Virus record (IMG/VR): IMGVR_UViG_3300027156_000310
Coordinates: 1-49,575 of that record
Reading direction: 5' to 3' (one strand)
From: a virus
DNA length: 49,575 nt
Below are positions 19,299-43,325 of this stretch, in pieces. The translations under genes and the position numbers were made by a program. Numbering within the stretch: position 1 is the stretch's first letter; every line of letters starts with the position of its first letter. Under the pieces are notes generated by a model. The model was not told where the DNA came from and searched no databases. It saw only the letters and a list, made by a program, of their open reading frames with translations.

Positions 19299-19305
19299 TA
19301 TTTAT
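19299..19305 (-). promoter_or_regulatory. T4-late-type promoter motif
   Basis: The minus strand carries ATAAATA at 19305-19299, 18 nt upstream of the ATG at 19281 with AGGTGG in between. It matches the core of T4 late promoters (TATAAATA) recognised by gp55, and overlaps the stop codon of the giant gene. Confidence 0.5.
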
Positions 19306-28300: not shown

Positions 28301-31300
28301 CTTTTGCACATAGACGCATATCTTCTACTGCTTGAGTTTCTGAATTATAATAGTCAAAGACGAATCCTTGCACTTTACAATAATTCTCGTAACCTAAAAT
28401 AAAATCAACTACTTCTTGAATTGATGCAAATGTATATCCGTAAGGATATGCAACAACGCTATCTTCAAAAGTTGTTCTAAATACTGCACTTACTCCGCCA
28501 ACAATAGGAAGTGAAGATAGTTTTGTAAACTTAGTTTCTTCAAACGCCGATGAACTTTCGTGTGTTACTTTTGTTCTATAATAGCTGTTTTCATATCTAA
28601 CAATAATACCAGCTACATACTGCTTGTTTTCATCCCATTCTACAAACGACTCGCTTATTCCTCCAACGTTAACCACCGGATCAACATTTCTTTCTCTGTG
28701 AGGATTTATGTAAAACACAGATGATTCTTTATCATATCCTGATAAGATATATCCATTTTCATTTTTTTCAAATATCATACCACTTAGCGATGGAACATCT
28801 AATGCGCTGCTTGTGTTTAATACAATTTGATAGTTTTCCTCTGGTACAAAGACGTTTCCTTTGTTTAACGGTGTTCTGCTATCTAACACTAGTTTTAGTT
28901 TTGTTTTGTCAGCAAAACCACCTAAGTAAACTGCTAATTGTAAGTTTAGATTTTTTAGTTGTTCTTTATAAGAAGAAAAGTTTGCAGAATGTTTGGTTGT
29001 TATATAGTTGGCAACATAATTAACCAATCCAGATGTTTGTACTAACTCTTCAGTTTCTAGCGTACTAGGAAATACCAACTCGCTGAGTTGTATTCTCTTG
29101 TTAGTTTCTGTATAAACAAAATTTCCAGCAACGTCTTTGGAAATTCTAGATAAGTCAAAACCTATACCAAACAACTTAGAAGGTTGTAACAACACCCAGG
29201 CAGTTATAAATGCAAACGGAAATTCCGAGCTTCTTCTCCATGCAGTTTCGACGTATGCTTCATCACCAAATGCAAACTGACCTCTTGTTTTTAGTCTGTC
29301 AACATTTTGTGCTAATCCGCAGTCAACTGGACTTAGCAATTGTCCATATTCGTTTACAGGAATATTGTTTAACAATCCAGGTCTATAAAACTGTACATTT
29401 CGTTCTATTAGTTTGCCTGGCTGTCTAATAATTCCTTCTTGCAAGTCGTACCACAATACAGTGTTATTGTTTGTGTACGGGGCAGGTCCGTATACATCTT
29501 CCCACCAAGTAGGTTGTATTGTTAAACCTAACATTTCCCAAGGATGAGTGTGCGGTCTATCAGTATCAAAATAATGTTTATAGATACTTCTCCAAAATCC
29601 GTCTAGATTGTTTCCGTTTATATCTGAGCTATACTTGTAGTTGTAAGAAAATCCGTCGGAAATGTCCCACGCATCATTTTTTACATAATCCGGAGACCCT
29701 GCTACTTCTAACCATTGAGCAAAGTCTGATAACATTATGTTGTTTAGACTTTCTTTTTTAAATCCAGTGTCTCTGTTTACACCATTGATAAAATCAAAAA
29801 TGTTAAGTTTAGACACATCATAGGACGACTTAATGTTGTTGTAAATTCTTCTTTCTAGTTCAAGTATTAGTTCGTCACGATAGTCATTGTATGCTAGTAT
29901 TAAACTACCGTCGTGTCCTTGAATCATAGTCTGAGGAGTAGAATATGTAGTATCCACAATTAATGAAGGAATGTATTTAGGATACAATCCTAGTTTAGTA
30001 GGTGTAGGAGGAACAAATGTTCCGTTAGTGCTTTCAAATTCGTGTACTTCAACTGTATCATTTGAATCTAAATCTAATGTTACGTAAACAAATTCGTTTT
30101 CAAAAGTATAGTCAACTCCGTGTACTAACTGTTCACCATTTAAGTACACTAATATAGATCTAGTAGATAGTGTTTGTAAATTAAATGTCTTTGACATTGC
30201 AAAATACGCAGGTCCTGGATACTCTACAGTTGTAGATGAAACAGTCGATGACTGGTACCCTAACATATCACTAAAATAAAATGAGTTTGTTGAAGTTTTA
30301 TCTTTGTTAATTCTAGAAAGAATTAAGTCTACATGCTCTTTAACTGAACCATGAAATCCTGAATTTTCTGCTTCGTTTAAAAATGTTCTTTTAAACTTAG
30401 CGTATTCTTTTTTTGCATATCTTATAGATTTAATAATGTTAGCATCTTTGTCTGTGATATGGTAAAGACCTAGCGGCAACGGACCTGAGTGTTGTATAAA
30501 TTTGTTTCCATATGTAGATACGTTACCTAAGTCTCTTAAATTGCTTGCACCCGGAAACTCGCCTGCAAAGGTTCTAACATTTTCTATAATACTGCTAGCA
30601 TGATCATTTACTTCGCCTAGCGTAAATACAGATAGGCTTTCGTTTAATGGATTTTTTTCAAGGTTTGACGGAATCTCGTAGAATCCGTTTGCATTTTTTG
30701 TTGCACTACTGTATGCTTTAATTACTAACGAATCGCCTACTGTTAGATCATTATTAAAAATTACAACTGCTATATTGTTAACATTTTCAATAGTATACTC
30801 ACTGGTTAGTTTTTGTTTTTTTCCGTTAACATAAACATATACAACCAAGTCAGTAAGCGATCCACTGTTGTCAAACATGTCGACAGCAAAATTATTTAAT
30901 TGTGTATCTACTATAGAATTTTTAATTACAAACTGTTTACTGTTTGCATTTGCTTTAACCCATCCGTTAACAAAAGAATAAGCGTCTCCTGAAGGATCAT
31001 ATAGTTTTAGATATCCTTTATCAGTGGTTACGCTTCCGCCGCGATGAACAGCAGACTGGTACTCAAAGGAATCGTTGGTTAAATCAAAGATAAATTGTAT
31101 ATCGCCGATATTGGCAATGTTTTGGTAACTTAATGGAAAACCTAGTTCAACATCATTTGACCCTGTACCTATTTTATAGCTAAAAACTTTATTACCAGCA
31201 AATGTTGATGCTGGATAATAAGTTAAATCATTAAAAGCTATACCAGTTTTATCAAACAAATCAAATAACGGGGTTTGATTTACTGATGTTTTTTCCTGTG

Positions 31301-33017
31301 ATCGAGTCCAAGTGCCGCTTGTATAGGAAAACATTTTTCCTTTGTAGCTGTCACCATTTAGAATTAATACAGTTTCGTTTTTGTTAGGAACAGAATCTGC
31401 GGTTTCGATTAACGATATTTGTCTGCGACCGTTGTGTGTTATAAACCTTACTTCGTAAATTCTACCATTTACTAAAATGTCAGTGTCGGCTGTAAACAGC
31501 ACTCTAGTACCGTTAACAAGATCAATGCCGTCAACGTTATAGCCTAGACTTCCTTCAATTGTGCTAAAAGCATCAACTGTAAATGTATCAACTACATCAA
31601 CAGGCTGTTTTGCTTTAGTGCCGTGATTAAACAGTTTTAATCCTGCTTCAAATTCTATAATAGGTCTTTTTGCTCTAGCATCTTGATCGAGCACAATTTC
31701 GTTATTACTTGCTTCTGCACTTGCAACAATTACATCCTTGTGGAACCATCTGTTATATCGTGTCCACGGATTTTTATCAGCACTTGCTCTATTAATAACA
31801 ATGTAATCTTTTGTTCCCGGAAAACTAGTTGCGTCTTCAAACGGATATATGTCAAATGCAGTGCCATCAAACGGAATGTTATATTCAGATGTAAAAATTG
31901 CAGGAACTTCTAGTGATTCGTCAGATATAAGAACGATTTTATTTCCTACACCCTCGACATAAAAATATTTTCCAGCATATGTACTTGGAGTTACATTACC
32001 AGCAAAAGACACTTTCATGCCGTTGCTTAATTCTACGCCATTGCTAGCTTTGTAGGTCTTTTTTCCAAGTATTTCAGTATCAACATTTATTGATGTGTTT
32101 TCTTCAATATTAGAAATATTAAAAATACCGCTAGTGTTAATGTTGTTTTTGCTTATATAATACAACGTTGACGGAGCGTTTGCAGGAATAGTGAATTCTA
32201 TTATGCCCTTTTCAATAAAGGTTGCATCTGTAATTTTGCCATCTTCGTCATATTTTACAATACCGTCATTGTACAGTGCAGAAACGTTTTCACCAGCAGT
32301 GTAATCAATTCCTCCAGTATCAGCTAGAATGTATGAGCTGTTTTCTGTAAACGATCTATTTACAAAAAATGCAACAGGATGTCCCGGAGTGTTAATTTCA
32401 AATCTGTATGTTACTTCTTTATACAAGTCAAGTCTAGGATTTCTTGTAAATCCGTTAGGAGAAAATACATATGCATAATTGTCGCCTTCATCTGAAAGAG
32501 ATATTGTATATGTACTAACAACTTCAGACGATTGTCCGGAAATCACGATAGGATCTGGACCCATCGGCAACCAATAATACTCTCTAAAGTTTACAAATTT
32601 ATCCCAGTCTATGTGAGGGTTCCAAGAATAAAATTCCTGGCTATTTAAAATACTATGGTTAGAAACAGTTGATTTGAAACTTTTTAATTGTCCGAGATAA
32701 TCTCTGTATCCTTTTAGAAATGTTACATTATCAAGTTCGTCCTTAGCAACCACAACTGGTTCGAATTGATAATTTTCTCTGTCCGCAGAGAAGTCTGCCA
32801 AGTAGCTATCTGATGCAGTCGTAGCTTTAGAAAACCGTCTACCAGCAAACGCACTAAGTTTTTCAACTACACCGGGGGTAGTCATTTGATCAAGTGTGCT
32901 GCTTAAAAACTTTTTGTTAATGTTTGTTCTAAAGTATTTAGGTAACAAATTAATAGATGAAGTGTTACTATTTCCGATAGGAAGTGGGAAGTCATCTTGT
33001 ATATTGTTGTTTGCCAT
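19302..33017 (-). CDS. Giant virion structural protein (gp7 position, 4571 residues) with FG-GAP-like repeats
   Basis: This single frame takes 13.7 kb. The N-terminus (FRTNINKKFLSSTLDQMTTPG, then NPHIDWDKFVNFREYYWLP near 135) is characteristic of giant baseplate-region proteins of marine T4-like phages. Its place after gp6 corresponds to T4 gp7, which is about 1,030 residues. At roughly residues 2120-2610 are repeated units such as AISPDGKYIAVGAPN, ERFGANIQI, KIFIGAPGSS and INDTGTKIAVGAPH, which look like an integrin-type FG-GAP propeller. Around 3066 and 3436 are GRGYVIAPEIKI and GSGYTSTPLVRI units, and throughout are beta modules with a VNG turn (YVYVNGKKQ, SVSVNGVKQ, VYLNGEQL). A ribosome site CGGAGG lies about 12 nt before the ATG. 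It may form wedge periphery and adhesive arms. Confidence 0.8.
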   Translation of the reverse strand: MANNNIQDDFPLPIGNSNTSSINLLPKYFRTNINKKFLSSTLDQMTTPGVVEKLSAFAGRRFSKATTASDSYLADFSADRENYQFEPVVVAKDELDNVTFLKGYRDYLGQLKSFKSTVSNHSILNSQEFYSWNPHIDWDKFVNFREYYWLPMGPDPIVISGQSSEVVSTYTISLSDEGDNYAYVFSPNGFTRNPRLDLYKEVTYRFEINTPGHPVAFFVNRSFTENSSYILADTGGIDYTAGENVSALYNDGIVKYDEDGKITDATFIEKGIIEFTIPANAPSTLYYISKNNINTSGIFNISNIEENTSINVDTEILGKKTYKASNGVELSNGMKVSFAGNVTPSTYAGKYFYVEGVGNKIVLISDESLEVPAIFTSEYNIPFDGTAFDIYPFEDATSFPGTKDYIVINRASADKNPWTRYNRWFHKDVIVASAEASNNEIVLDQDARAKRPIIEFEAGLKLFNHGTKAKQPVDVVDTFTVDAFSTIEGSLGYNVDGIDLVNGTRVLFTADTDILVNGRIYEVRFITHNGRRQISLIETADSVPNKNETVLILNGDSYKGKMFSYTSGTWTRSQEKTSVNQTPLFDLFDKTGIAFNDLTYYPASTFAGNKVFSYKIGTGSNDVELGFPLSYQNIANIGDIQFIFDLTNDSFEYQSAVHRGGSVTTDKGYLKLYDPSGDAYSFVNGWVKANANSKQFVIKNSIVDTQLNNFAVDMFDNSGSLTDLVVYVYVNGKKQKLTSEYTIENVNNIAVVIFNNDLTVGDSLVIKAYSSATKNANGFYEIPSNLEKNPLNESLSVFTLGEVNDHASSIIENVRTFAGEFPGASNLRDLGNVSTYGNKFIQHSGPLPLGLYHITDKDANIIKSIRYAKKEYAKFKRTFLNEAENSGFHGSVKEHVDLILSRINKDKTSTNSFYFSDMLGYQSSTVSSTTVEYPGPAYFAMSKTFNLQTLSTRSILVYLNGEQLVHGVDYTFENEFVYVTLDLDSNDTVEVHEFESTNGTFVPPTPTKLGLYPKYIPSLIVDTTYSTPQTMIQGHDGSLILAYNDYRDELILELERRIYNNIKSSYDVSKLNIFDFINGVNRDTGFKKESLNNIMLSDFAQWLEVAGSPDYVKNDAWDISDGFSYNYKYSSDINGNNLDGFWRSIYKHYFDTDRPHTHPWEMLGLTIQPTWWEDVYGPAPYTNNNTVLWYDLQEGIIRQPGKLIERNVQFYRPGLLNNIPVNEYGQLLSPVDCGLAQNVDRLKTRGQFAFGDEAYVETAWRRSSEFPFAFITAWVLLQPSKLFGIGFDLSRISKDVAGNFVYTETNKRIQLSELVFPSTLETEELVQTSGLVNYVANYITTKHSANFSSYKEQLKNLNLQLAVYLGGFADKTKLKLVLDSRTPLNKGNVFVPEENYQIVLNTSSALDVPSLSGMIFEKNENGYILSGYDKESSVFYINPHRERNVDPVVNVGGISESFVEWDENKQYVAGIIVRYENSYYRTKVTHESSSAFEETKFTKLSSLPIVGGVSAVFRTTFEDSVVAYPYGYTFASIQEVVDFILGYENYCKVQGFVFDYYNSETQAVEDMRLCAKEFMFWVTQGWDTGSVITISPVGNSVKFSKDYHMVDDIFDNFYDYNILTGTGERLSKEFSSIYRTNANTYGLEPIQTAEGIFLVRLPLVQTEHVVLLDNVTVFNDIIYDMIPGYRQERIKLVGYRTDNWNGGLNIPGFFYDRAYVSNWNTWTDYSIGDLVKYKEFYYSSNMKHTSTDYFDANHWNLLDEKPTPSLYANWDYKVNQFTDFYDLDTDNFDTEQQRLGQHLIGYQKREYLANIINDDVSQYKFYQGFIAEKGTKNSLTKLFDALSSADKDSLEFFEEWAIALGQYGSVNNIKEVEYKIDEEKYRLEPQPFELVSSLSPSRTDLVYEIPSYDVYLKPDDYTHKPFPLTTNTTTFTRDSGYVRNDDVDYVVNTYDELLTLNIEEVELGNHVWIVEKNNTWDVVRHVNSDQKIIGIQSYTPTDRKFYENGTPSGFTLQFENYVPFEKDEIIGIYNNNLNINGFHKIVDVVLDKVSIVTETPVSIDINTPYEDSSGVVSIFRSRRFADSNDINNQYYKVQDDLSDKIWVDDAVDSQWAVYKHSSVFALQEESINPTGDGDGFASSFDVSSSNSTIVVGSPDRVNGYVNLYYRFNESIAKTKYQEILPSTSIHDSSSKYGYSVAISPDGKYIAVGAPNAGNVKTRYVGILNPTGSYAEGDIVSDRGTLWKANKTIAGDNSTISDLSQDWTPTYLIEGDATGSSSGLSSQGIVYLYEKQPNSLYNLITTFTSPDPMNGERFGANIQIRNHYSGPKIFIGAPGSSTGRIYFVEYTDSNWKYSRNRMYKGSFSETTQYYVDEIVYYEGYLYKASTNLAPGIFDLTNWISLSSDIEHVGFIPNTVDVIDGDSDSTGLVNATGIGYNFDVNSLGDMIVLSGSLDTGLTQNGDPTILNRIGLYRNEGSRWQFGQYIDTDDSVEDYAFSLAINDTGTKIAVGAPHNNLTGIDTGIVYIYKQVNGVFALQQSIPSPFTEHNESFGTGIDFAGNKLVISSKNGDSKVRMLFDNNATVFDNNSTRFMTVAEDLGKLYVFQEIGDNFVYAEDLIYTRNTRLQDNTNFKIVDNHIYIGFPEITNEDSTIGMLVDCRAERNTNSWSTITSQTNKVDVKYIKKVFLYNTEKNTTFGTIDLIDPRQGKIAGVADSEIFYKTWYDPAVYSVAEQDINQNYPDVFVDKLNSWTTSEVGRLWWDISKASWYNPYQGTTQYRTAWWNKLVDGASIDVYEWTESDLTPDEYNRITETNEGFANGITGTPLHLNAYSLRKVYNIETGTFNYKYYFWVKNPQTIPFKNNRKLSAFDVAKLIEDPASTGYTFVALIGQDKFALYNARSYIEGTKTALHFTITNDLTNINNIHSEYQLLTENLASSKPNEKVETKWFDSLIGYDINDRPVPDTALSVKQKYGILNSPRQGMFINKTEALKQVVERANSVLLQNSIVDNYDMSMLLSQEEIPNENSGRYDTTVDTLEDLRFVIVAKTEQAVLSPVVEDGRIISVNIVNPGRGYVIAPEIKITSSSGTGAIFKTTINNLGQITSVLVRSKGKNYPSNTTLTPRKFSVLVKSDSEIVGRWAIYDYNKSARSWTRVDSQKYNTQNYWTYADWYAAGYGSQTAINQTVNESYELFGLDNNIGDVVKINTIGSGGWLLLEKIDDQLTEDYTINYKTIGRENGTIQLASRLYDFITTTSGYDANIYDTAFYDREPVVELRNILTALRDDIFIGDLEVEWNKLFFASVRYAFSEQLFIDWAFKTSFIRAKHNLGNLSQSVTFKNDNLENYEDYVNEVKPYASKVREYISSYTYTEPTQSLITDFDLPPSYNLETREIETNGISVIDGVLTGIADKYLEYPFKSWLDNNGYDIIRIDVADGGSGYTSTPLVRIDNNNGTTARAYLSRGRVSSVIIDNTGGKYLTAPEITIEGSIAEGGSQAKAVAVLGNGVVRSTRIGMKFDRVSGSYLFTELDETQTFTGTGAAELFYLKWPIDLRTNTYSVSVNGVKQLSSQFVVGNVTDKTKTYNREIGYIEFMDPPANESLIQITYNKNIKLLSAADRINFFYNPSTGMLGKDLSQLMDGVDYTGTILDSIDFGTQQGFDVSGYGALPWDTFSNTYDDEIFVCDGSTNTFELTNPLEDGLEYNVYLNNVRIDDPEYDYSTVLSNPNALMQTLVGDGETTVVSINEELISIVDGDVVVIRKSTSDGSFVPTNDSYDTAIEGGNLAYTTAAGVSSGEINIDGDGFVTTTTSRGPEELVPGQILDTLDIQVYHRTTDGTGIIGVANFKIDGDSTSFALPSVPQSVDSVVVKIDNDIVSSDLYSLDLKNNLLLFDNDISTLGSNLSIMSIGTNGIDLLDTGTFVSDGSTLVVTTSAVWQTELSAFVTKNGEVLSEGTAYTLVQSSNTSDYPNRVQIVFDFTVLAENNFVQWTIYGSELKTYSQMVIDRTFEADGLTNYHKFDTTNIPIPFNALPISHKILVTVNDRILNPGYNISFTTTSARVYQIEEWQFQDTTSIDDTDIIVFADGVQLLSTQYSFDPVNATIEILFSTVAPAGSKLEIFVLKNADYWTLDTQITFEALPSQTLNLDFLQADDHVYATSIVYDDSAAVVDSTTQDLVVHSSDNNVVQFVTRNTNIRDAFVSNDVFRLDFDGHSSIECRIASIKYVLSDSIQFAIAPSSGEVVEIYTFSNHDVNDFNRISYDVLTTTSVSAGSSDYVKRNLLSSGIVELRSPITSGNYAWVIHNGELLTPNVDYTLTDNRSAVKLLRTPIENDTIDILQFSANPVVPKFGYRMFKDIMNRTHYKRLNQNNSYVLKDPLNYYDARISLVSSAGIAIPSKEMNKPGVVFIEGERIEYFEVVGNYLLQLRRGTLGTGIKNVYNPGATLYGQGIDENIPYRDRTLTQTFIGDGTSTDFVLDFTPASVNEIDVIVAGRKLRKTSLDLFVATIDQDSPEADIVLPPEFTVDVEAGTISLATAPAENIYINVVRRIGKVWNETGKALKDSENDISRFLRGATIQLPK

Positions 33018-36000
33018 CAGTAAATGTAGCCTCCGGTTGTATTACTTGTTGTATTAAGTGTTGTACTTTGTACTCCACTGTTTGAAGTAGAAGTAGATGT
33101 AACAATTGACCCATCTGCTTTTAATCTGTCTGTAGTATTAGAACTTATTATTTCAACGTCGCTAACTGTTGCTCCGCTTATAAAAATTTCGTCAGTTTGA
33201 GGAGTTATTTCAAACAGGCTACCAAATGTACTTGTAGCAGATCTAGGAACAATAACTATGCTGCTAACGTCTGGTGCTAAATCTTTCATTATGTAAGACG
33301 ACAGTTCAGAGAAGTAAAATGTTTCTCCAAAATCCCAATTGTCTAGTGCAAAGAATTTATTAATACTAGATACTACTCTAGATTTAATTTCGTTGTCATT
33401 GACTACTCTGTTAGGATTTTTTACAATTTTAAAGATTGCTTGCATGTCTGAATCTGCTTTACTACCAAATAGTATTTTATACTTTACAGGATGATAAACT
33501 ATATCATCGCTGATACTTTTAACTTTGGCTAATTCTGCTCCATAGTTAATGAACAATTGATCGCTGCTAGGAGGCAACGGTTTGTCAATTGTTCCATCTA
33601 GATACTGTCTAAACAATGTATCGTATGAACGAGTTAACAAATACACATCAATTATATTGCTACTGCTTGGATCAATTCTATTGTTTTCGTCGCTAGCATG
33701 AATGTAATGAAACTTGATATTGTCTCTTCCTGTATATGCATTGTAATCGTATATTTGGGTTAGTGTGCCTGCTGTTCTGTTGTACTGTTTAAATGTGTCT
33801 GTTGACTCTATATAAAAAATTGTACCTGTTGCATACTCTGTTAAATTAATAGAACTTTGTGTAGGAGCTACAACTATATTTTCAGCTGTCTGATTAACAT
33901 AAACAGTAAACTCGTTGTTGTTTATTATAGTTTTTTTAGTAAACACATATGTAGCATCGTTTACAATATCAGTGAATATGTCAGGATTATCAATTACGCC
34001 GTCATCGTCGCTATCATAGAAAACAACTTCTACTTTTTTTGTATCAACATAACCGTTTTCGTCTCGGTAATCACTTGCTATTTCCCAATCAAAGTCAACG
34101 GTAAACGGAATTAACTGTCCTGGCTGTTTGTTAATGTTGAGCACTGATATTTTATCTTTTACAATAACTCCGGTCTGACTATCATAAATCTTTTTATTAT
34201 TGTCAAAATAGAATCTAATTTGTGCATCACTTTCGAATATGTAACGCAGTGATCTATATGTTACTGTATAAGAAAATCCATTTGTCTCAAATAATAATAA
34301 CCAGCTAGAGTCTAGTTGTTGATTGCTAGTGTCTCCTGCTTGTCCTAGGCTAAAGTCATCATAAACATTTAGGTTGTCTTCGTTGATAACTTCCCACTGT
34401 CTGTTGTCTCTGTCGTATCTTAATCCAAATGTTCTATATGCAAATATTTCAGATATAATTTGTGTGTAAACATCATTTACAAGATCTTTTACAAATTTAG
34501 GTTTTACAGCATTTAAAATAGCACCGGTAGGTATAACATCGTTAAACACAATAGGTCCTAAACCTGAAGAAGTTAATGTTGTTCCTGATTCCGAAACACT
34601 TACAACCTTTACCCATTTATAAGTAACTGCATTTTCTGTATCAGCAGCGCCTGTTACTAGATTTCCGTCAACATCAAAATACTTTCCGGTTGGTGCAACA
34701 AATTTTACCATTGCTTCAGGTTCTAAAAATCTCAACGGACCCTCAGTAAATGTAGCAACTTGATAAATTATGTCGCTTGAATCTTTGATGTATCCTGTAG
34801 ATCTATTGGTATCTTTGGTTACTTGATTCCATGTTAAATTGTATTCTGCATAGTCCTGGTTAGGATATTCGCTTAGATAAAAGTTTCTTACATTTTTGTC
34901 TTGGAACACAGGTATTATTTGATTTTGTAATACTGCTTCGATATCTGTTCTAGTCAAGAAATTAAAATTAATTTTCTTATCTACTTTTTCTTTAAACAGA
35001 ACGCCATCGGTTGCAAACAAGTTAGTTGTAGAATATTTTCCTGTTGCATCTATTAAATCGTAATATCTGCTTATGCCAATTGAAGTTCTGTTGATCGATT
35101 TTACTTTAACGATTTCTTGACTTATTGCAAGTGGACCAATTGAATAATCTTCAGCAGTTATTAAACGGTTTTGAGTATAATAAGTTGCAGGAGCATTATT
35201 TTTTATGCTCTCGATTGTTTCAGTGCTGCTTGCATTAGTTACAGTTGTTTTCAATGACAATACAATAGTCAATGTTTCTGTTCTACCTATTCTACTAATG
35301 TACGGTATTCTAACTGTTACGTTAGTGATGTTTGCTGGAAGTATTGTATAATCTTTGTTTGCACTGATTCTGTAATAGATTCTAAACGATCCTTTTGGAA
35401 GTGTTCCAAAAATACCATCAGAGAAAATTAAGCTAACTCTATCATCTGTTCGTGTTGTTACTGTGTAGATGTTTTTAATCTTTTTATTTAGATTGTTATA
35501 AACAATGTTGTTGCCTTCTACTGCATCAACTTTGGTCCACAGCTCAGTTTCTTGTCCTGCGGAATCTAACTTGTATAACCAAACGTCTGTGTGATTTATG
35601 TTAGACGAATCAATGTCTATTGTTTGGTTAGGAACAGGAGAGTCAATTGTAAAATCTCCTCTGTTTAGTAACCCTTGTCTAAAGTGTGCAAAAAATCCTG
35701 TTGAATTACTTCCAGGTCCTTGACCGTTATCTCTATAAATGAACGCTAGAGAATTTCCGGGTAGCGGTGCTTCTTCTACTAAGTCGCCATTACTAATTGT
35801 TGTACTAACAATTTCGAAGTCTAAATTTGTATTATTAACTGACTTGGAAAAAGAGTATACAGGAGTAGTAGTAGATGCAGAATTGAATCTATATTGTTCT
35901 GTAGAAATGCCGCCTACGCTATCCAATTGAATAGGTCTGCCAAAAGTGTTTTGCACTGGCATAGCAGCATTTAAAACTTTAGTAAATTGTTCGTACCAAT

Positions 36001-36451
36001 CGGTGTTTACACTGTCATTCCAAATAACAGTTTTTCCACTTAAATTTCTGCCAGCACTGTCTGTAATGTTTTCTGATGTGGAAACACTTTGAAATTTAAG
36101 CAAACCGTTACCGGCTTTATTACGCTGAGGATTATATGAAAGCAAACGTGCAAGTCTTAAAACACTTTCTCTGCGTTCAGCTAATTCGATAAAGTTTTCT
36201 CTTGCGTTTAAGTCAACTCTAAACGAAATGTTTTGTCCTAAAAACGCAATTAAATCGATTAACGCAAGATATTCCGACGATTCAATATAATCATTGAAGT
36301 CTTCAGGATAGTTTACTCGTAGATATTCAATCATTGTTCGACGTAAATTGTCAAAATCATATGATTTAAAATCTGCATACTTAAAACTTTGATAGATTTT
36401 TTTCCAATCTTCAGCAAGTAATAATCTGTTTTGTCTATCTGTAGAAGACAT
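33017..36451 (-). CDS. 6: Baseplate wedge protein gp6-like
   Basis: ATG 36451 is preferred over a GTG two codons earlier, as AAGGA lies 8 nt before it; the product is 1,144 residues. The N-terminal 110 residues (AEDWKKIYQSFKYADFKSYDF, RRTMIEYLRVNYPEDFNDYI, LIAFLGQNISFRVDLNARENF) are strongly characteristic of gp6 of T4-like marine phages. gp6 forms the ring of the baseplate wedges and contacts gp25, gp53 and gp7. T4 gp6 has about 660 residues, so this version has nearly 500 extra, mostly beta-rich, after the conserved start. Near residue 1020-1100 is a part (YKILFGSKADSDMQAIFKIV) similar to gpJ-like ends. The stop codon is joined to the ATG of the giant gene. Confidence 0.87.
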   Translation of the reverse strand: MSSTDRQNRLLLAEDWKKIYQSFKYADFKSYDFDNLRRTMIEYLRVNYPEDFNDYIESSEYLALIDLIAFLGQNISFRVDLNARENFIELAERRESVLRLARLLSYNPQRNKAGNGLLKFQSVSTSENITDSAGRNLSGKTVIWNDSVNTDWYEQFTKVLNAAMPVQNTFGRPIQLDSVGGISTEQYRFNSASTTTPVYSFSKSVNNTNLDFEIVSTTISNGDLVEEAPLPGNSLAFIYRDNGQGPGSNSTGFFAHFRQGLLNRGDFTIDSPVPNQTIDIDSSNINHTDVWLYKLDSAGQETELWTKVDAVEGNNIVYNNLNKKIKNIYTVTTRTDDRVSLIFSDGIFGTLPKGSFRIYYRISANKDYTILPANITNVTVRIPYISRIGRTETLTIVLSLKTTVTNASSTETIESIKNNAPATYYTQNRLITAEDYSIGPLAISQEIVKVKSINRTSIGISRYYDLIDATGKYSTTNLFATDGVLFKEKVDKKINFNFLTRTDIEAVLQNQIIPVFQDKNVRNFYLSEYPNQDYAEYNLTWNQVTKDTNRSTGYIKDSSDIIYQVATFTEGPLRFLEPEAMVKFVAPTGKYFDVDGNLVTGAADTENAVTYKWVKVVSVSESGTTLTSSGLGPIVFNDVIPTGAILNAVKPKFVKDLVNDVYTQIISEIFAYRTFGLRYDRDNRQWEVINEDNLNVYDDFSLGQAGDTSNQQLDSSWLLLFETNGFSYTVTYRSLRYIFESDAQIRFYFDNNKKIYDSQTGVIVKDKISVLNINKQPGQLIPFTVDFDWEIASDYRDENGYVDTKKVEVVFYDSDDDGVIDNPDIFTDIVNDATYVFTKKTIINNNEFTVYVNQTAENIVVAPTQSSINLTEYATGTIFYIESTDTFKQYNRTAGTLTQIYDYNAYTGRDNIKFHYIHASDENNRIDPSSSNIIDVYLLTRSYDTLFRQYLDGTIDKPLPPSSDQLFINYGAELAKVKSISDDIVYHPVKYKILFGSKADSDMQAIFKIVKNPNRVVNDNEIKSRVVSSINKFFALDNWDFGETFYFSELSSYIMKDLAPDVSSIVIVPRSATSTFGSLFEITPQTDEIFISGATVSDVEIISSNTTDRLKADGSIVTSTSTSNSGVQSTTLNTTSNTTGGYIY

Positions 36452-36475
36452 TGGCACGTTCCTTAACTATTAAAA

Positions 36476-36504: not shown

Positions 36505-36948
36505 TTAAAGTAGACCGTTTTCTCTGTCAAATCTAAAAACTAATTCTTCACTTATACTGTAATCCAAGTAAAGTAAAGTACACTGTATTTGTAGTCCGTA
36601 TTCATATTGATCGACTACTATATTATCAACCTTTACTCTAGGATCATAATTTACAATATCGGTAACGTTTTTTATAACACTCTCTTTTAAGTCGTTTGTG
36701 AGAGGTTCAAACAGTACATCCCAAATTATAGTACCAAATTCTGGATTTTCTAATTTTTCTCCCATTCTTATATGAAAATGGTTAACAATATCTTGTTTAA
36801 TTAGTGCAATGTCACTGCTCTTAAAATCTTTATTGTTGGGATTTACTGTACTAATTCCTTTGTAACTTTTATTAGTAATAGGATTAGAAGCCACAAGCTG
36901 CGGTTGTACTTTTAAATTTTTATAAAGATTTTTTTCTAAAGTGCTCAT
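36505..36948 (-). CDS. 25: Baseplate wedge protein gp25-like
   Basis: The 147-residue protein has the gp25/GPW domain (Pfam GPW_gp25). The segment IALIKQDIVNHFHIRMGEKL, then NPEFGTIIWDVLFEPL and the YDPRVKVDNIVV strand (about residues 50-110) is diagnostic. gp25 is a lysozyme-like-fold wedge protein at the junction of wedge and tail tube, and is essential for sheath assembly. T4 gp25 has 132 residues, so the length is normal, with about 20 extra residues at the N-terminus. It lies between the muramidase-like gene and gp6, as in other marine T4-like phages. No strong ribosome site precedes the ATG, which lies only 7 nt after the upstream stop. Confidence 0.92.
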   Translation of the reverse strand: MSTLEKNLYKNLKVQPQLVASNPITNKSYKGISTVNPNNKDFKSSDIALIKQDIVNHFHIRMGEKLENPEFGTIIWDVLFEPLTNDLKESVIKNVTDIVNYDPRVKVDNIVVDQYEYGLQIQCTLLYLDYSISEELVFRFDRENGLL

Positions 36949-36952
36949 GCTG

Positions 36953-36959
36953 TATTTAT
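36953..36959 (-). promoter_or_regulatory. ATAAATA motif abutting the gp25 start (doubtful)
   Basis: The minus strand reads GATAAATAC at 36960-36952, with the core ATAAATA ending 4 nt before the gp25 ATG. A transcript from this motif would start within the gp25 coding region, so either it is coincidental or it serves the genes downstream of gp25. Confidence 0.3.
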
Positions 36960-38098
36960 CTTCGCGTATCTGGAGGAATAAACTGTGGTGTTACTGGTGA
37001 TCTGTACTTTACGTTGGGTCCAGTTGTTGTGCCGGTCGATGCTCTAGTCGTTGTTTGTGAACTGACTAGTACTTCTCTAGCACCTCCGGGAGTCATTACC
37101 GTTTGATATTTGCTTGTGATAGTTTTTACGCCTGCAGGAGTACTAACTTGATTAACCTTTGTTACAGTCTTACCGTCAGTTGAACTTCTTCCATTTAGTG
37201 CGGTATCAGTTTCACTATCAGAATATCCTCTACCTCCAATGTCATTTGGCGGCGGTAGTCCGTTTCCGGGTATTAGTCCTTGATTTGATGTAGGATTTAT
37301 TCCGTTTGTCAACATATCTCGTACTTTCCTGCCTGTTCGGAAATCATATCTATTATCGTAAGGATCTGTTTTTTCGTACACATACACATTACTAGGTGTA
37401 GGAAGTCTATCATTACCTAAAGGTACGTCGGCTGCTGTTCCGCCAAAGATACGCTGGCCGCCACCGGCAGCAATTTCAGTTTGCATTTTTTGTGAAGTTC
37501 CAGTTGGCTGGTTAGCAATGCTACCTTGCTGAATGTCAACTTCAGTAACTGTTCCAGTGCCGCCATTTCTAATATCTGCTAAGTTAGCTAGAAAAACATC
37601 TGCGTTGTGATGGGCCTGGTCTATTCCATTATCATAATATGAGTCTCCTTTTTTTCGAGGTTTTCCATTATGTCCTGTCATATCGTACGGAACTGGTACA
37701 CTTGAAAATACTTGTGCCAGTTTTATACAAAATTCTGCATCAGTGATTGCACCCGATTTCCAGTCTTCTAGTCTTTTATATTTTTTAATATACGCTAAAA
37801 TTAAAATGTCTTGTACATCTCTGCTAAACTTAGTAGTAGTAGGATCCAATCCAGCAAACTTTACAGCTTCGCGCAACGAAGTTTCTCTAAATTGATATCG
37901 TCCACATGCATCTGACCCGTAACCCGACGCCATTCGGCGTTGTTGAAATTCATACAGTTGACTGATGGTACGTTCTGTTATCTCAGGAAAGTTTTGGCCG
38001 GAATATACTGCACAATATGGATCTCCACCGGTACCCTCGGACTCGCCCTTTGCACATAGCGTTAGTAATGCTTTTTCTTGTGTTGTAATCTGAACCAT
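36956..38098 (-). CDS. Muramidase-like tail lysozyme, separate polypeptide
   Basis: The 380-residue protein has a lysozyme-like domain in residues 5-160. AKGESEGTGG has Glu19 in the catalytic position, and ACGRYQFRETSL (64-75) is the GRYQ motif found in phage muramidases and P22/lambda-type lysozyme relatives. Around residue 110-130 follow ILAYIKKYKRLEDW and AEFCIKLAQVF. After residue 170 it is low-complexity, rich in Gly, Thr, Ser and Pro, like a linker or a fibre-attachment tail. T4 carries its tail lysozyme inside gp5; here the muramidase is a separate gene next to the gp5-like spike. The product probably helps cut peptidoglycan during tail penetration. AAGGA is upstream of ATG 38098. Confidence 0.78.
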   Translation of the reverse strand: MVQITTQEKALLTLCAKGESEGTGGDPYCAVYSGQNFPEITERTISQLYEFQQRRMASGYGSDACGRYQFRETSLREAVKFAGLDPTTTKFSRDVQDILILAYIKKYKRLEDWKSGAITDAEFCIKLAQVFSSVPVPYDMTGHNGKPRKKGDSYYDNGIDQAHHNADVFLANLADIRNGGTGTVTEVDIQQGSIANQPTGTSQKMQTEIAAGGGQRIFGGTAADVPLGNDRLPTPSNVYVYEKTDPYDNRYDFRTGRKVRDMLTNGINPTSNQGLIPGNGLPPPNDIGGRGYSDSETDTALNGRSSTDGKTVTKVNQVSTPAGVKTITSKYQTVMTPGGAREVLVSSQTTTRASTGTTTGPNVKYRSPVTPQFIPPDTRR

Positions 38099-38106
38099 TT
38101 TTTTCC

Positions 38107-40596
38107 TTATTGTGGGGTTGATGTTGCAGGCGGCGGACTATCTGGATCTTCTGCTACAGTTTTAGTTTGAGTCACAGGTGACGGAATAACGCCTCTTTCA
38201 ACATCCCATGCGCCGCGTTCGACTTTTGATGCACTAAAATGCATTGCGTCACTTATTTTTCTCCATTCGCCTCCCCATCCCAATCCGTGCTTGGCTGCTA
38301 TTGCTCCAGTATTGGGTGGCATGTCAGTCGGTGTAGGTACTCGTTTAGGTTTGTAATACCCGTTGGTAGCAGGATTTATGTCTAGAGCAGCGCCGCTGGC
38401 ATGAAAACTTTTAATACTTTTTTCACCTTTAACGGGTCTATTTGCGTATCCATACATAACTTTGATGTCATACCCTGTAGCTTCAAGGTCGTCAATAAGC
38501 CCTTGGAACGCATCCTTGAATACTAGAGCAACTTGTGCAGTTATACCGCGTTTACTTGTTACAGTTGCAAGAGGTCCTTGATTTGCAGGAGCTGTATCTA
38601 TGCCGCCACGGGGTGATGATCCATAATCTTCTTCAGATCCAGTTCTACCTAATCCGTATCCTCCGGATCCTTCTACGTAACTTGATGTTTTTCTACTAGA
38701 CGTACCTCTTGTGAATGTATCTGGTGTTATTATTCTGTCGTTTGACGGAAGTTCTCCACCAAATTCTCTGTCTGTTTCTTCTCGTTTAAATGCCTGCGGA
38801 TTCATGTTTTCATGCTGTGTCCACGGTTCACGTTGTGGCGCTCTACACAGTATACTTTCATACGGAATTGGCAATTGAGCACCAGGAGGAACATAGGGCA
38901 ATACATGTGTTGATAACGGCTTCAACGAGAGTGCATTGTTAGGCGCAGTTGGTGAATTACCGCCAATTTTTTGAACTGCAGGTGTAGCATCACCGGCTAA
39001 TCCGCTGTTTAAGTGTATTTCTCCTGCATCTGCTGCAAAGATACCTGCGGCCTTGATATTAAGATTACTGTCTGCTTGCAGGTATATGCTTTGAGAAGCA
39101 CTGATACTGGTCTGACCGCCGAGTGCAGAAATATAAACGTTGTTAGGAGCATATATATGAAAATCTGCACCGGGTTGCTGATGTATAGATCCTGTTGCAA
39201 TGTCAACTATATCACCGCCTGCTGCTTTTCTATACCAACTTTGTCCTGCTGTTTGGTGAAAACTCAAGTCTGCTTTTTGATATATGCTACCGCCCTCGGC
39301 GTGCATATTGATGTCGCCCTTTGTAGTAAGTTTAATTTCTCTAGCAACATTAAAGTCTAGACTTTCGCTGGAAGTAAACTGGAAAGATCTTCCTGCAACA
39401 ATTCTAGTGTCGTACACACTTTCAATATGCACACGACCTGATTCTAATCCGTTAAAACTCTGCGCTCCATCGCTGAATCTTGCAGATGCTTTCATGTTGA
39501 TGTTTCTACCAGCTTCAAAATTTATATCTCGTTCTGCTGTAACATTCAAGTCATTGTCTGACATGATACTGATACTATCGTCTGCATGTATATCTATTTT
39601 GCCATCAGACGTTAACTCGATCCATGCTGTTCCTCGAGAATTGGCAATGTAGATTATATCTTCTGAATTATGCAATAATATTTGATGGCCAGTTCTAGTT
39701 CGAAGTCGTATTAATTCGTTATGAGGAATTGTTTCGTCGCCACCAGCTTCTTCGATTAATTTATTTTTATAAACAGGAGGACCGTCACTTGCATGAAATT
39801 CTCTAATTAACTTGTCATCGCCGTCGTCCATAACCAAACTACTACCACCTAAACGACTTACATGAATTTCTGCTTCGTTTCCTGCTGTACCAATTTTTGC
39901 TCTAGGTGCTCCGGGTCTCTTATCAATAGGTCCAGGAGTGTTAAATCCAAATACTGCACTAGGAATTTCTCTTCTAGCACTAGAACTTGTTAATCCTCGA
40001 GCTTCGTCAAATAACAATCCTTGTATTTCTAATACTTGAGTAAAATCTTGGTTATAAGGTTTTCTTGTTAGTGTTGTGTCATCGGGTAACTCAGTTGTAA
40101 TGCCTTTGTTATACTCGCCTACTGGTAATTTTGCTCCTTGTAGATTGCTAGGTGTTCCTGAAGTTGTTAGTTCTGTTGATGCACGACCGTCAGGTACCAT
40201 GAAATTCATATGTTCGTCGGGCACACATGCAAACCAATATCCCCGCGATCTGTCTCCTTCTAGAAACATTACTAAAACTTTAGTATCGACATCCGGAGGA
40301 ACCATCCAGAACCCGTAGCTCTGCTGTGAACTTCTGTAATTGTCGTCGCCTGTTATGTTTGCCAAAGAAGTTACGCCATAAAACGGAGACGCATAGTTTA
40401 CAATTACAGTCGATTCATCTATGTTTTCGTAATCACCTGCTGAGGTTGTTTTGATAAGTTGTACTTCTAATGCACCCATATACTTTTTGTCTAAAAATCC
40501 TACAACCTTTGCAAGATAGGGTCCAGGTGTTAACGGAGGGTGTACTGCGTGTGAAGTTCGAGATGTAACATTCCTAATAGGCTGTCTTGTACTCAT
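38107..40596 (-). CDS. 5: gp5-like baseplate hub spike with C-terminal M15-type peptidase
   Basis: The 829-residue protein begins with an OB-fold region (GPYLAKVVGFLDKKYMGALEVQL, about 25-50). Around residues 330-540 are short repeated beta strands (DGKIDIHADDSISIMSDNDLN, RDINFEAGRNINMKAS) like the spike beta-helix of gp5 and VgrG. The C-terminus (about 680-795) is an M15/VanY-type peptidase: SFHASGAALDINP supplies the zinc-binding His and Asp, and WGGEWRKISDAMHF supplies the second His. M15 enzymes cut cross-links in peptidoglycan (L-Ala-D-Glu or D-Ala-D-Ala type). T4 gp5 has a lysozyme domain instead. The order of modules, spike followed by peptidase, is well supported; bond specificity is unknown. 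Confidence 0.84.
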   Translation of the reverse strand: MSTRQPIRNVTSRTSHAVHPPLTPGPYLAKVVGFLDKKYMGALEVQLIKTTSAGDYENIDESTVIVNYASPFYGVTSLANITGDDNYRSSQQSYGFWMVPPDVDTKVLVMFLEGDRSRGYWFACVPDEHMNFMVPDGRASTELTTSGTPSNLQGAKLPVGEYNKGITTELPDDTTLTRKPYNQDFTQVLEIQGLLFDEARGLTSSSARREIPSAVFGFNTPGPIDKRPGAPRAKIGTAGNEAEIHVSRLGGSSLVMDDGDDKLIREFHASDGPPVYKNKLIEEAGGDETIPHNELIRLRTRTGHQILLHNSEDIIYIANSRGTAWIELTSDGKIDIHADDSISIMSDNDLNVTAERDINFEAGRNINMKASARFSDGAQSFNGLESGRVHIESVYDTRIVAGRSFQFTSSESLDFNVAREIKLTTKGDINMHAEGGSIYQKADLSFHQTAGQSWYRKAAGGDIVDIATGSIHQQPGADFHIYAPNNVYISALGGQTSISASQSIYLQADSNLNIKAAGIFAADAGEIHLNSGLAGDATPAVQKIGGNSPTAPNNALSLKPLSTHVLPYVPPGAQLPIPYESILCRAPQREPWTQHENMNPQAFKREETDREFGGELPSNDRIITPDTFTRGTSSRKTSSYVEGSGGYGLGRTGSEEDYGSSPRGGIDTAPANQGPLATVTSKRGITAQVALVFKDAFQGLIDDLEATGYDIKVMYGYANRPVKGEKSIKSFHASGAALDINPATNGYYKPKRVPTPTDMPPNTGAIAAKHGLGWGGEWRKISDAMHFSASKVERGAWDVERGVIPSPVTQTKTVAEDPDSPPPATSTPQ

Positions 40597-40606
40597 AAAT
40601 TATTCC

Positions 40607-43018
40607 TTATCTTCGTGAATCTGTAAATTGTTTTATTGTCGGTAACTTAAATGTTCCAGGTCCGCCAGTTGGAAACACAGTCGTAGGCACTTTAGCTGTA
40701 TTTTGCGAAAGCAGTGCTGCAACCTGTGTTGGGCTTTGTCCAGTTAGAGATCTTCCTAATTGTTGTTCTAGTTGACTTATATCAATTGCCCCACTGGCAA
40801 GTTGTTGAGCAATTTGTGACTGACTTAATCCAGCAAGTTGAGCCAATGCTATTGGCATTCCTTCAGATCCTACAGGAATTTCAATTAATGATTTTATATT
40901 TAACGGCTGGAATACTTGTAATAGATTTGTTCTTAAATTTTGAACGTTGTTTATAAGCTGTGTTGCTTGATTAATAACTCCAAAAATTTGTCCTAGTTGT
41001 CCCGGTATATTTGATAGACCGCCTAGTAAATTAGTCGGTATGATATTTAAGAATCCTAATTTTGATACCACTTGACTTAGTTTTTCAACCTCCGAGAACA
41101 ATAAATCAGTAGATGCTGCACTGCCCGCCGGTACAGGAACAGTATAATCGCCGCCCGAGATCAATTGTTCTACTATAGACTGTACGTAAGATCTAGTGGC
41201 ATTATCTTGATTTGGTCTTTTTAATAAATGCAAGGAATTTGTAAATTGTCCATTACTGAAATTACTGTTTAATGTAATAACTTTATATATTCCAGTAAAT
41301 GCATTTGCACTGTCAATTATTAATCCGTTTTCTTTGTAGTCAAGTGCTGAAGAAAAGTTTAATAAAATATCAACTTCAGATGTTCTAAAATTTACAGAAT
41401 TATTCGATGTTATGTTTCTGTAAGGTGTCTCTGGCTGATAATTTCCTGCATCTGCATCTGGTAGATAATACGGGTCTCCCCATATTTTTAAATCAAGAAC
41501 AACGTTGTCAACATCACTGTTTAAAATAGCTCTATTAAATAATTCTGCTACACGGCGTTTTTCGTCATCAATGGCTGCGCCAGTCGGTGCTGTTGCATCA
41601 GCAGTTGTATAAACTGCTTTGTTTACAGGCGTTGCACCATTTGTTTCTATTAGTCGACTTACTTGTGCGTTTGAAGCAATACTGGCAATTTCTTTGGTTA
41701 TAGTTCTAGGTCCGCTGCCTAAAGATGAAACAGCAGCCATAGACGGGTCAGCCAATGTTTTAAAGAAACTGTTATCAATTGTAAATTCTAAGTCGAGTAC
41801 GTCTGTGTTTAACCCTGTATAGGAATAAAAATATGCTTTAACACAGTCACCCGCTAGTTCTACATAGTTTTGTTCTGAAGTGTTTGGTGCAATTTGACTG
41901 ACATGAACTTCTTGCTCGTAAATGTCGTAGATATAGTTTAATGCAGGACGGCCTTGACCATTGTCAGGAGACAATATATTGACTCTTGAAAATATTTTAA
42001 ACCAAGAGATCATTCCTTTACTGTTAGGACTTCTACTAATAAGTCCTTGTCCCCATTCACTGGTTAACAATACATCTTCTATAATTTTTTCAATTTTTGT
42101 ATTTTGAGAATACTGAAATGTTCTAGTGATGTCATTTATTGATGTAGGCATTATAATCCCTGTGCTCGGATTGTATACCTGACTCAATGAAGCAAGTCCA
42201 GATGTTCCGTAAGAATCAAAATCTTTACTAATGTTGCTTGTGGCAAACGAAGATCCGTTTACAGTTCCGGTGTTATATAAACTTCCAGACGATGGTCCTG
42301 TGGTGTTTGTTACAAAATTAATGTCGTATACATCGTTTTGAAGTATTACCTTTCGTCCCATTGCTTCTTCCTGGGGATAATTTATTGCTTTTAGTAAACT
42401 CTTTTCACCGGTTTTTAATATTTCTTCAACAGTAATTCCTGATATTTTTACACTTGTTCTTACATTTTGAACTTCATCAGTAAACGCACTGTGATTCCAA
42501 GGAATACATTCAATGTCATACACAGATCCACTGGCATCTACTTTAAAAGTCAAGTTTACAAGTTTTACTACGAAAGTCTTACGCTCTACTTGACTGGTTA
42601 CTTTGCCCGAGTCGTCGTAGCCTACAAACTCACAGGATAAGGAAAAAGGTGCTTCGATATAATTTCCAAAACCTGCAGATTTTGATGCAAGGTGTAGTGT
42701 TTGTAAAAATAATCCTATGCTATAAGGTTCTGTAACTTGAAATGTAATTTTTGTTGCAACAGATGTACTTGTTCCAGGGTTGTTGGAAATAAGACTGTCT
42801 ATAGAAATGTTGTCGATAAAGTATTCTACTTTTATTCCTGCTGCATCTTCTGCCGCAGTTGTAATAGTTTTATCAGGTAACCCACTTGAACGTATTATAG
42901 GAATATTTCCAGCACCAGGTAATCCTGTGCTGTTTACTTCGTTAACGTTTAATGCACTTAACGTCCACACATAGTTGTAAGATACAAACTTTCCTAGTGG
43001 ATTTAAAAGTATTCCCAT
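40607..43018 (-). CDS. Baseplate hub protein, gp27-position
   Basis: The 803-residue protein is placed where T4-like phages have the hub protein that holds the gp5 spike. It has long beta-rich stretches in its N-terminal half (KITFQVTEPYSIGLFLQTL near 90-110, then CEFVGYDDSGKV, FVVKLVNLTFKVD and YDIECIPWNHSAF). A middle part has an FNRAIL segment and many YxxE-type turns. The C-terminus (about 640-790) is rich in Gln, Leu, Ser and Gly with heptad-like spacing, suggesting a helical extension. It shows no catalytic motif. A gp27-like role is inferred from location and size and is not proved by sequence. ATG 43018 follows GGAATC. Confidence 0.6.
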   Translation of the reverse strand: MGILLNPLGKFVSYNYVWTLSALNVNEVNSTGLPGAGNIPIIRSSGLPDKTITTAAEDAAGIKVEYFIDNISIDSLISNNPGTSTSVATKITFQVTEPYSIGLFLQTLHLASKSAGFGNYIEAPFSLSCEFVGYDDSGKVTSQVERKTFVVKLVNLTFKVDASGSVYDIECIPWNHSAFTDEVQNVRTSVKISGITVEEILKTGEKSLLKAINYPQEEAMGRKVILQNDVYDINFVTNTTGPSSGSLYNTGTVNGSSFATSNISKDFDSYGTSGLASLSQVYNPSTGIIMPTSINDITRTFQYSQNTKIEKIIEDVLLTSEWGQGLISRSPNSKGMISWFKIFSRVNILSPDNGQGRPALNYIYDIYEQEVHVSQIAPNTSEQNYVELAGDCVKAYFYSYTGLNTDVLDLEFTIDNSFFKTLADPSMAAVSSLGSGPRTITKEIASIASNAQVSRLIETNGATPVNKAVYTTADATAPTGAAIDDEKRRVAELFNRAILNSDVDNVVLDLKIWGDPYYLPDADAGNYQPETPYRNITSNNSVNFRTSEVDILLNFSSALDYKENGLIIDSANAFTGIYKVITLNSNFSNGQFTNSLHLLKRPNQDNATRSYVQSIVEQLISGGDYTVPVPAGSAASTDLLFSEVEKLSQVVSKLGFLNIIPTNLLGGLSNIPGQLGQIFGVINQATQLINNVQNLRTNLLQVFQPLNIKSLIEIPVGSEGMPIALAQLAGLSQSQIAQQLASGAIDISQLEQQLGRSLTGQSPTQVAALLSQNTAKVPTTVFPTGGPGTFKLPTIKQFTDSRR

Positions 43019-43019
43019 G

Positions 43020-43325
43020 TTAGATTCCTATAACTGTAATAAGAGTTGACTTTTTTGGAACATAAATCTTAGTACCTGCAACAAAATCAAAAATAGGATC
43101 TTTAATTATATCCATGTTTCTAATAGAAAACACCCACCACAGCTTTGAACTACCATACAAGTCGTAAGCTAACAAATCTGGTCTGTATGTATACTGAGGA
43201 GTAATTTCAAAAACCAAATCATCCGACAGTGCCGGTATGTCTCTTTTTACCATTATATCAAGATAGTTTGTAGAATTTAATTGTGTTAACTGCCACGGAC
43301 TTGTTTTTGCATAACTAACTTCCAT
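43020..43325 (-). CDS. 53: Baseplate wedge protein gp53-like
   Basis: The 101-residue protein ends with the conserved block YRPDLLAYDLYGSSKLWWVFSI, followed by IKDPIFDFVAGTKIYVP. This block, including the WW pair and the G-x-x-I-x-V-P end, is diagnostic of gp53 and of LysM-like tail proteins. gp53 links wedges to the central hub in the T4 baseplate. T4 gp53 is about 196 residues, so this is roughly the core half only. ATG 43325 overlaps the upstream stop in TAATG with GGAAGG before it, and the next gene begins one base after its stop, as expected in a baseplate operon. Confidence 0.82.
   Translation of the reverse strand: MEVSYAKTSPWQLTQLNSTNYLDIMVKRDIPALSDDLVFEITPQYTYRPDLLAYDLYGSSKLWWVFSIRNMDIIKDPIFDFVAGTKIYVPKKSTLITVIGI

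Follow-up and report, generated by a model that had tools for sequence, protein, structure and literature searches.

A peptidase-tipped spike and a separate lambda-lysozyme-like protein with a conserved tail motif in a viral tail hub cassette

The tail hub region of a virus recorded in IMG/VR as IMGVR_UViG_3300027156_000310 carries two wall-cutting enzyme domains, one at the end of the central spike and the other on a separate protein encoded by the next gene, and this second protein bears a short conserved motif in its tail. The stretch analyzed, positions 1 to 49,575 of that record, is called the window here (49,575 nucleotides). On its minus strand the genes follow one another in the order gp53-like, hub, spike, a protein of 380 amino acids (aa), gp25, and gp6 (33017–36457). 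The open reading frames (ORFs) of the spike (829 aa) and the 380-aa protein are both on the minus strand, with 8 bases between them. The features concerned are as follows.

38107–40596, minus: gp5-like central spike, 829 aa, with a C-terminal peptidase
39472–39633, minus: segment of the spike's beta-helix shaft, DUF2345, residues 322–375
38203–38580, minus: M15 peptidase domain of the spike, residues 673–798, with metal/catalytic site H732, D739, D783, H786
36956–38098, minus: separate protein with an enzyme domain and a putative docking tag, 380 aa, recognized as an ORF and by synteny among relatives
37553–38092, minus: lambda-lysozyme-like (GH104-type) domain, residues 3–182, with E19 and GRYQ at residues 66–69
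37301–37393, minus: block of the conserved short motif, residues 236–266, with its core D248–V259 at 37322–37357
40607–43018, minus: gp27/VgrG-like hub protein, 803 aa, without a recognized enzyme domain
36505–36948, minus: gp25-like baseplate wedge protein, the downstream flank (PF04965, E 8.3e-7)
43020–43325, minus: gp53-like baseplate wedge protein, the upstream flank (PF11246, E 5.6e-5)

In PHROGs the spike has a match to phrog_13211 (E 3.9e-54), the family annotated as baseplate hub subunit and tail lysozyme, and with its matches to DUF2345 (PF10106, E 6.8e-13) and Phage_base_V it has the OB-then-beta-helix architecture of the gp5 and VgrG type; the OB model PF04717 on its own scores 18.9 bits, below its cut-off of 23.8, and a phmmer comparison with the PDB yields a weak VgrG match only. 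No lysozyme family domain of Pfam or NCBIfam aligns to it, and in the place of one it ends in an M15 peptidase. The original prediction had proposed such a tip from the motifs SFHASGAALDI and DAMHF, and these metal-site motifs are intact: PF13539 (Peptidase_M15_4) matches residues 724–788 with E 2.9e-15 and 57 bits against a cut-off of 25, and an alignment of 19 M15 domains shows no variation at H732, D739, and H786 and almost none at D783. The metal ligands H, D, and H and the acidic residue before the last H are all present. Our own M15 profile finds two solved L-Ala-D-Glu peptidases, 2vo9 (E 1.8e-4) and 8q2g (E 0.003), with the H...D...H zinc ligands in register, as had been suggested for checking. 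The spike domain probably cuts the L-Ala-D-Glu bonds of stem peptides.

The 380-aa protein had been described as muramidase-like from its GESEG and GRYQF motifs. No Pfam or NCBIfam family covers it, Pfam returns nothing relevant for the protein together with 17 aligned relatives, and phmmer finds 0 matches in the PDB. It does match phrog_90 (endolysin, E 6.6e-16), and a profile of the protein and its 17 relatives matches lambda lysozyme (1am7 and 3d3d, E 0.005–0.006) with E19 and GRYQ aligned; E19 of GESEG and G66, Y68, and Q69 of GRYQF are invariant in the alignment of these 18 sequences. The AlphaFold2 model is confident over about residues 1–190. In a second structural alignment (VIA) of the Foldseek candidates, the baseplate chain 8kea_A of cyanophage A-1(L) ranks first (its residues 98–258, Z 13.8), and lambda lysozyme second (Z 12.4 and 12.2; for 3d3d, Z 12.4 over 147 residues with a root mean square deviation of 3.7); no other lysozyme-like fold exceeds Z 5.6. 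Sequence relationship, fold, and the catalytic Glu with GRYQ all place the domain with lambda lysozyme, the family name for which we take to be GH104; the lambda Glu that aligns with E19 is presumably the catalytic one. Lambda lysozyme is a lytic transglycosylase, and transglycosylation rather than hydrolysis would therefore be expected of the separate enzyme as well. The predicted glycan-cutter domain is present, with the Glu site aligned and the structure predicted as proposed, and it is the muramidase label that gives way, a lambda-like lytic transglycosylase being more likely than a hydrolyzing muramidase.

The 803-aa hub finds its own family match in phrog_11190, a virion structural protein, and neither Pfam nor our own domain profiles recognize an enzyme domain in it. 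We read it as gp27-like because the model of a homologue, the L055 hub, ranks highest with hub-type tail proteins: those of A-1(L), an Anabaena extracellular contractile injection system, P1, and Mu, along with T4 gp27 and VgrG. Together, the gp27-like hub, the peptidase-tipped gp5-like spike, and the free lambda-lysozyme-like protein make up the cassette.

Related loci carry the same pair of activities in shuffled form. A scan of viral contigs with the spike gave 598 relatives; the best 80 of these, with loci from an earlier search, make 81 spikes in 45 clusters at 90% identity, each with one representative. Arrangements were counted in the 40 cases with a readable hub end, window included, using profiles built from the window's domains and the relatives' tips. 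Because these loci share ancestry, the counts do not stand for independent events, and the sample is weighted toward the window's relatives. A glycan cutter and an M15 or M15-like peptidase occur together in 33 of the 40 (24 with the Pfam-grade M15 type only), and none of the 40 loci carries either kind of enzyme twice. At 18 loci the spike bears the peptidase and a separate gene encodes the glycan cutter (14 Pfam-grade M15, four M15-like), one further locus of this kind has an extra SleB-type domain, and at 14 loci the glycan cutter is on the spike and the peptidase on the hub (ten and four, respectively). The second peptidase-like type is M15-like by signature only: its best PDB matches are M15C peptidases (E 0.009–0.013), hhalign gives a probability of 0.3% for its relation to the first M15 type, and Pfam finds no M15 family in its eight members.

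In seven of the 45 representatives a GH104-type domain is fused to the spike tip itself; six of these have a readable hub, which bears an M15 domain, and in the seventh (L065) the hub is cut off. Because the same domain is built into the spike in these relatives, the fusions argue that the free protein belongs to the tail, and we consider it likely that this protein is present in the virion. Spike tips as a whole draw on a set of cassettes that includes M15, GH104-type, GH24 (PF00959, E 1.3e-17 in L029), SleB-type (PF07486), and VgrG3-like C-terminal (PF21277) domains, and a further lysozyme-like type in L033 (phrog_27932, E 2.4e-36). A tree of 44 spikes and an outgroup, built on the N-terminal 640 residues, requires at least 12 changes of spike tip and at least four changes in the place of the separate gene.

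Several single loci add to this variety. The VgrG3-like C-terminal domain is found on the spikes of L074 (by PF21277, E 1.1e-34) and of L079, L082, and L126/L127 (by our own profile). The spike tip at L052:5950–9603 combines an M15-like domain with an SleB-type cell wall hydrolase (PF07486, E 5.8e-8), and the separate gene of L052 is in two pieces, with enzyme and motif apart. At L103 several ORFs stand in place of an intact hub and separate gene, again with enzyme and motif in different ORFs, possibly the result of a frameshift or an assembly error. The separate protein at L032:3612–5996 has, beside its GH104-type domain, a weak GH19 chitinase-like stretch (residues 565–620, E 1.8e-4, below the curated cut-off).

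The most interesting part of the arrangement is a feature apart from the enzyme domain that the original prediction overlooked. The longest invariant stretch of the separate protein lies not in the enzyme but in the tail, where R250, Y251, D252, F253, R254, and G256, along with Y241 and D248, are invariant among the 18 sequences, in a motif of the form D-x-R-Y-D-F-x-T-G-x-K. A 32-column profile finds it in 32 of the 45 representatives at E < 1e-6 (most of these strong matches are the profile's own seeds; L059 and L065 are not), more weakly in six (E 8e-4 to 0.042), and in one at E 0.64. The profile finds no motif in the remaining six, among them L030, L053, and L084, which have no hub or a partial one on the contig. 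The motif is retained by enzyme-less proteins that take this position in relatives. In loci that lack the separate gene, it is found near the extreme C-terminus of the hub, strongly in L055, L056, and L059 and weakly in L062, L068, L069, L076, and L081; in L065 the motif ORF is cut off.

The motif is also confined to this setting. A degenerate DNA pattern for its core has 38 matches in IMG/VR viral contigs, and all 38 lie inside this cassette; 37 of these places were read for this purpose, L025 having been mapped before, and, to judge from contig names, 29 of the 38 fall on contigs outside the set analyzed earlier. In L025 the pattern falls at 2711–2737, inside a separate gene that lies between hub and spike. 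A genome-bin locus found through its spike alone likewise bears the motif (E 1.8e-13). In the stretches of A-1, Kyanoviridae, and Paride that were examined, the motif's hidden Markov model matches nothing at an E value better than 0.05, and among INPHARED phages its consensus has only chance matches (best E 3). No report of the motif, or of an enzyme pair split in this way, was found in open-licence PMC full text.

Over nine pairs of relatives, the ratio of nonsynonymous to synonymous change (pN/pS) is lowest in the motif block, at 0.17; the enzyme stands at 0.35, the linker at 0.42, and the part beyond the motif at 0.56. Synonymous change in the motif is not reduced (0.59), and the conservation therefore acts on the protein rather than on the DNA. 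In the AlphaFold2 models the motif is disordered, both on the free protein (confidence mostly below 50) and at the end of the motif-bearing L055 hub of 1,165 aa. We considered whether the motif folds back on the hub; its mean confidence in the L055 model is about 27–41, for which reason no contact is claimed. A docking tag would be expected to have just these properties: a conserved linear motif, placed in a disordered tail and kept independently of enzyme and carrier.

We think it likely that the cassette is the two-enzyme wall-piercing kit of a T4-related contractile tail, with the separate protein held in place by a docking tag. The ground for this is comparison of sequences and structures, which gives the enzyme domains, the gp5-like spike and gp27-like hub, the gene order, the permutation of the pair, and the conservation and confinement of the motif. 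Contraction of the sheath would drive the spike into the periplasm, where the M15 domain at its tip would cut stem peptides, probably at L-Ala-D-Glu, and the lambda-lysozyme-like protein, carried on the hub–spike complex, would cut glycan strands by transglycosylation, the two cuts together opening a hole for the tube. The motif would be a short linear tag by which the separate protein docks onto, and is held by, a constant part of the hub–spike complex. From the comparisons we infer the presence of this protein in the virion, the timing, the bond specificity, and the docking of the motif with its partner. A broader form of the proposal, to which we give a little less than an even chance, is a modular loading like that of the type VI secretion system (T6SS): the tag would dock interchangeable cargo, and selection would keep a glycan cutter and a peptide cutter while the carrier (spike-fused, hub-fused, or tagged and free) is swapped.

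Several observations weigh against a tag-held enzyme kit. A plain Foldseek search of the enzyme model against the PDB has no match at E ≤ 0.001; the lambda and A-1(L) structures were recovered only by the second look with VIA, and in sequence the enzyme matches lambda weakly (E 0.005). No peptidase was detected at seven of the 40 loci, five of them with a glycan cutter only and two with neither enzyme. Three of these seven (L057, L073, and L083) have a complete hub, no separate gene, and no motif; L084, with an incomplete hub on its contig, likewise has no motif match. No docking surface is seen, since the motif is disordered in both models. Finally, in L074, L079, and L082 the motif sits on a carrier that bears no enzyme, so that it may have a structural role of its own.

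This last point leads to the alternative that survives best, in which the enzyme is a passenger and the motif serves the hub–spike complex as a structural strap or processing site rather than as a docking tag. We regard it as somewhat unlikely. T4 gp5 is cleaved during maturation, which speaks for a processing site, and the motif occurs at hub C-termini, where docking to the hub would be needless, as well as on carriers that have no enzyme. A block of about 20 conserved residues is nevertheless long for a cleavage site, and nothing shows cleavage. The strap, for its part, overlaps with a docking tag, because by binding the spike it would keep the enzyme in place too.

A second alternative is that the separate protein is the lysis endolysin, sitting in a baseplate operon, and that only the spike peptidase acts at entry. 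The enzyme domain does resemble the endolysin of lambda, and several other lysis families were looked for and not found: GH24 occurs in none of nine long records, and Amidase_2, SLT, GH108, and Amidase_3 in none of the six long viral records (135–358 kb), in each of which the profile of the separate protein finds one place. Yet five of the six have a GH19-like ORF of 279–319 aa far from the hub (two over the curated cut-off, three below it), a better candidate for the endolysin; with lysis assigned to it, the cassette enzymes would be left for entry. Fusion of the same domain to the spike tip in relatives, and the persistence of the long tail with its conserved motif where the enzyme is gone, further make an endolysin improbable.

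The original prediction had suggested that the pair might suit a thin or unusual wall. Such an adaptation is very improbable: nothing was found in its favor, the pair is spread over most of the related loci and recurs in a cyanophage and in A-1(L), and a review associates the presence of two catalytic domains rather with thick Gram-positive walls (PMC6116005). What stands of that suggestion is the two cuts, glycan and peptide, for which both enzyme domains have intact key residues; because the same pair is found so widely, it looks like a general entry kit. The same review states that a single catalytic domain is typical of entry enzymes in phages with Gram-negative hosts, and that endopeptidases occur almost exclusively in phages of Gram-positive hosts (PMC6116005). 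The present lineage, which is uncultured and related to the T4-like jumbo phages, keeps a glycan cutter and a peptide cutter throughout much of its range and may depart from this pattern. Genome contigs were considered as a source of the host: two loci, alike in layout, fall in one metagenome-assembled bin of Candidatus Neomarinimicrobiota, possibly mis-binned, and are too weak to use.

Two other proteins encoded in the window have recognizable domains. A giant ORF of 4,571 aa (19302–33017), adjoining gp6, contains a chitin/cellulose-binding-type module (PF02839, CBM_5_12, E 1.1e-8, over the cut-off) at 28545–28640 on the minus strand. A 677-aa protein (16634–18667, minus) has a Phage Tail Collar domain (PF07484, E 5.7e-22).

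The single lysozyme of T4 lies within gp5, ahead of the beta-helix. Like the T4 gp5–gp27 cell-puncturing device, the window has a gp27-like hub followed by a gp5-like spike with OB and beta-helix parts; unlike gp5, its spike holds no lysozyme domain, the enzyme at the C-terminus is a peptidase, and the second enzyme is separate. The closest structural counterpart is gp15 of cyanophage A-1(L) (8kea), a myovirus hub for which parts of the structure paper describe lysozyme, endoglucanase, and peptidase domains, the latter two shown to lyse cells (PMC10966104). Its authors place the lysozyme at residues 56–265 (PMC10966104), and the best structural match of our separate enzyme falls within this range. 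The difference is that A-1(L) has all domains on one hub polypeptide, whereas here the peptidase is on the spike, the glycan cutter is separate, and no enzyme domain is recognized on the hub polypeptide. In the stretch of the A-1 record read, the motif profile does no better than E 0.88 and the M15 profile no better than E 0.25. The record for Nostoc phage A1 (KU234533; L128:12978–15676) annotates "peptidase" and "lysozyme" as adjacent genes, where the structure paper has one hub polypeptide (PMC10966104).

SCREM1_47 of the Kyanoviridae phage S-CREM1 likewise joins a GH104-type (E 1.4e-24) and a VanY/M15 (E 2.4e-9) domain within a baseplate gene cluster, though on a single polypeptide of 1,016 aa. 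Since the A-1(L) hub and the S-CREM1 protein already combine both enzyme types, two wall cutters in a myovirus hub are known and the pairing is not new. In T6SS, as part of the literature describes it, effectors ride on VgrG either as cargo or in specialized (fused) form (PMC10433429). The present cassettes resemble this in carrying enzymes on a gp27/gp5-like spike, fused or as separate cargo, and three of the relatives' spikes have a VgrG3-like domain. They differ in that this is a phage tail, its hub and spike are separate proteins, and its entry enzymes are not injected effectors, so that the likeness is one of working rather than membership. If the motif is indeed a docking tag, it would parallel the loading of type VI secretion cargo and offer a natural handle on how loose enzymes are loaded onto a phage tail.

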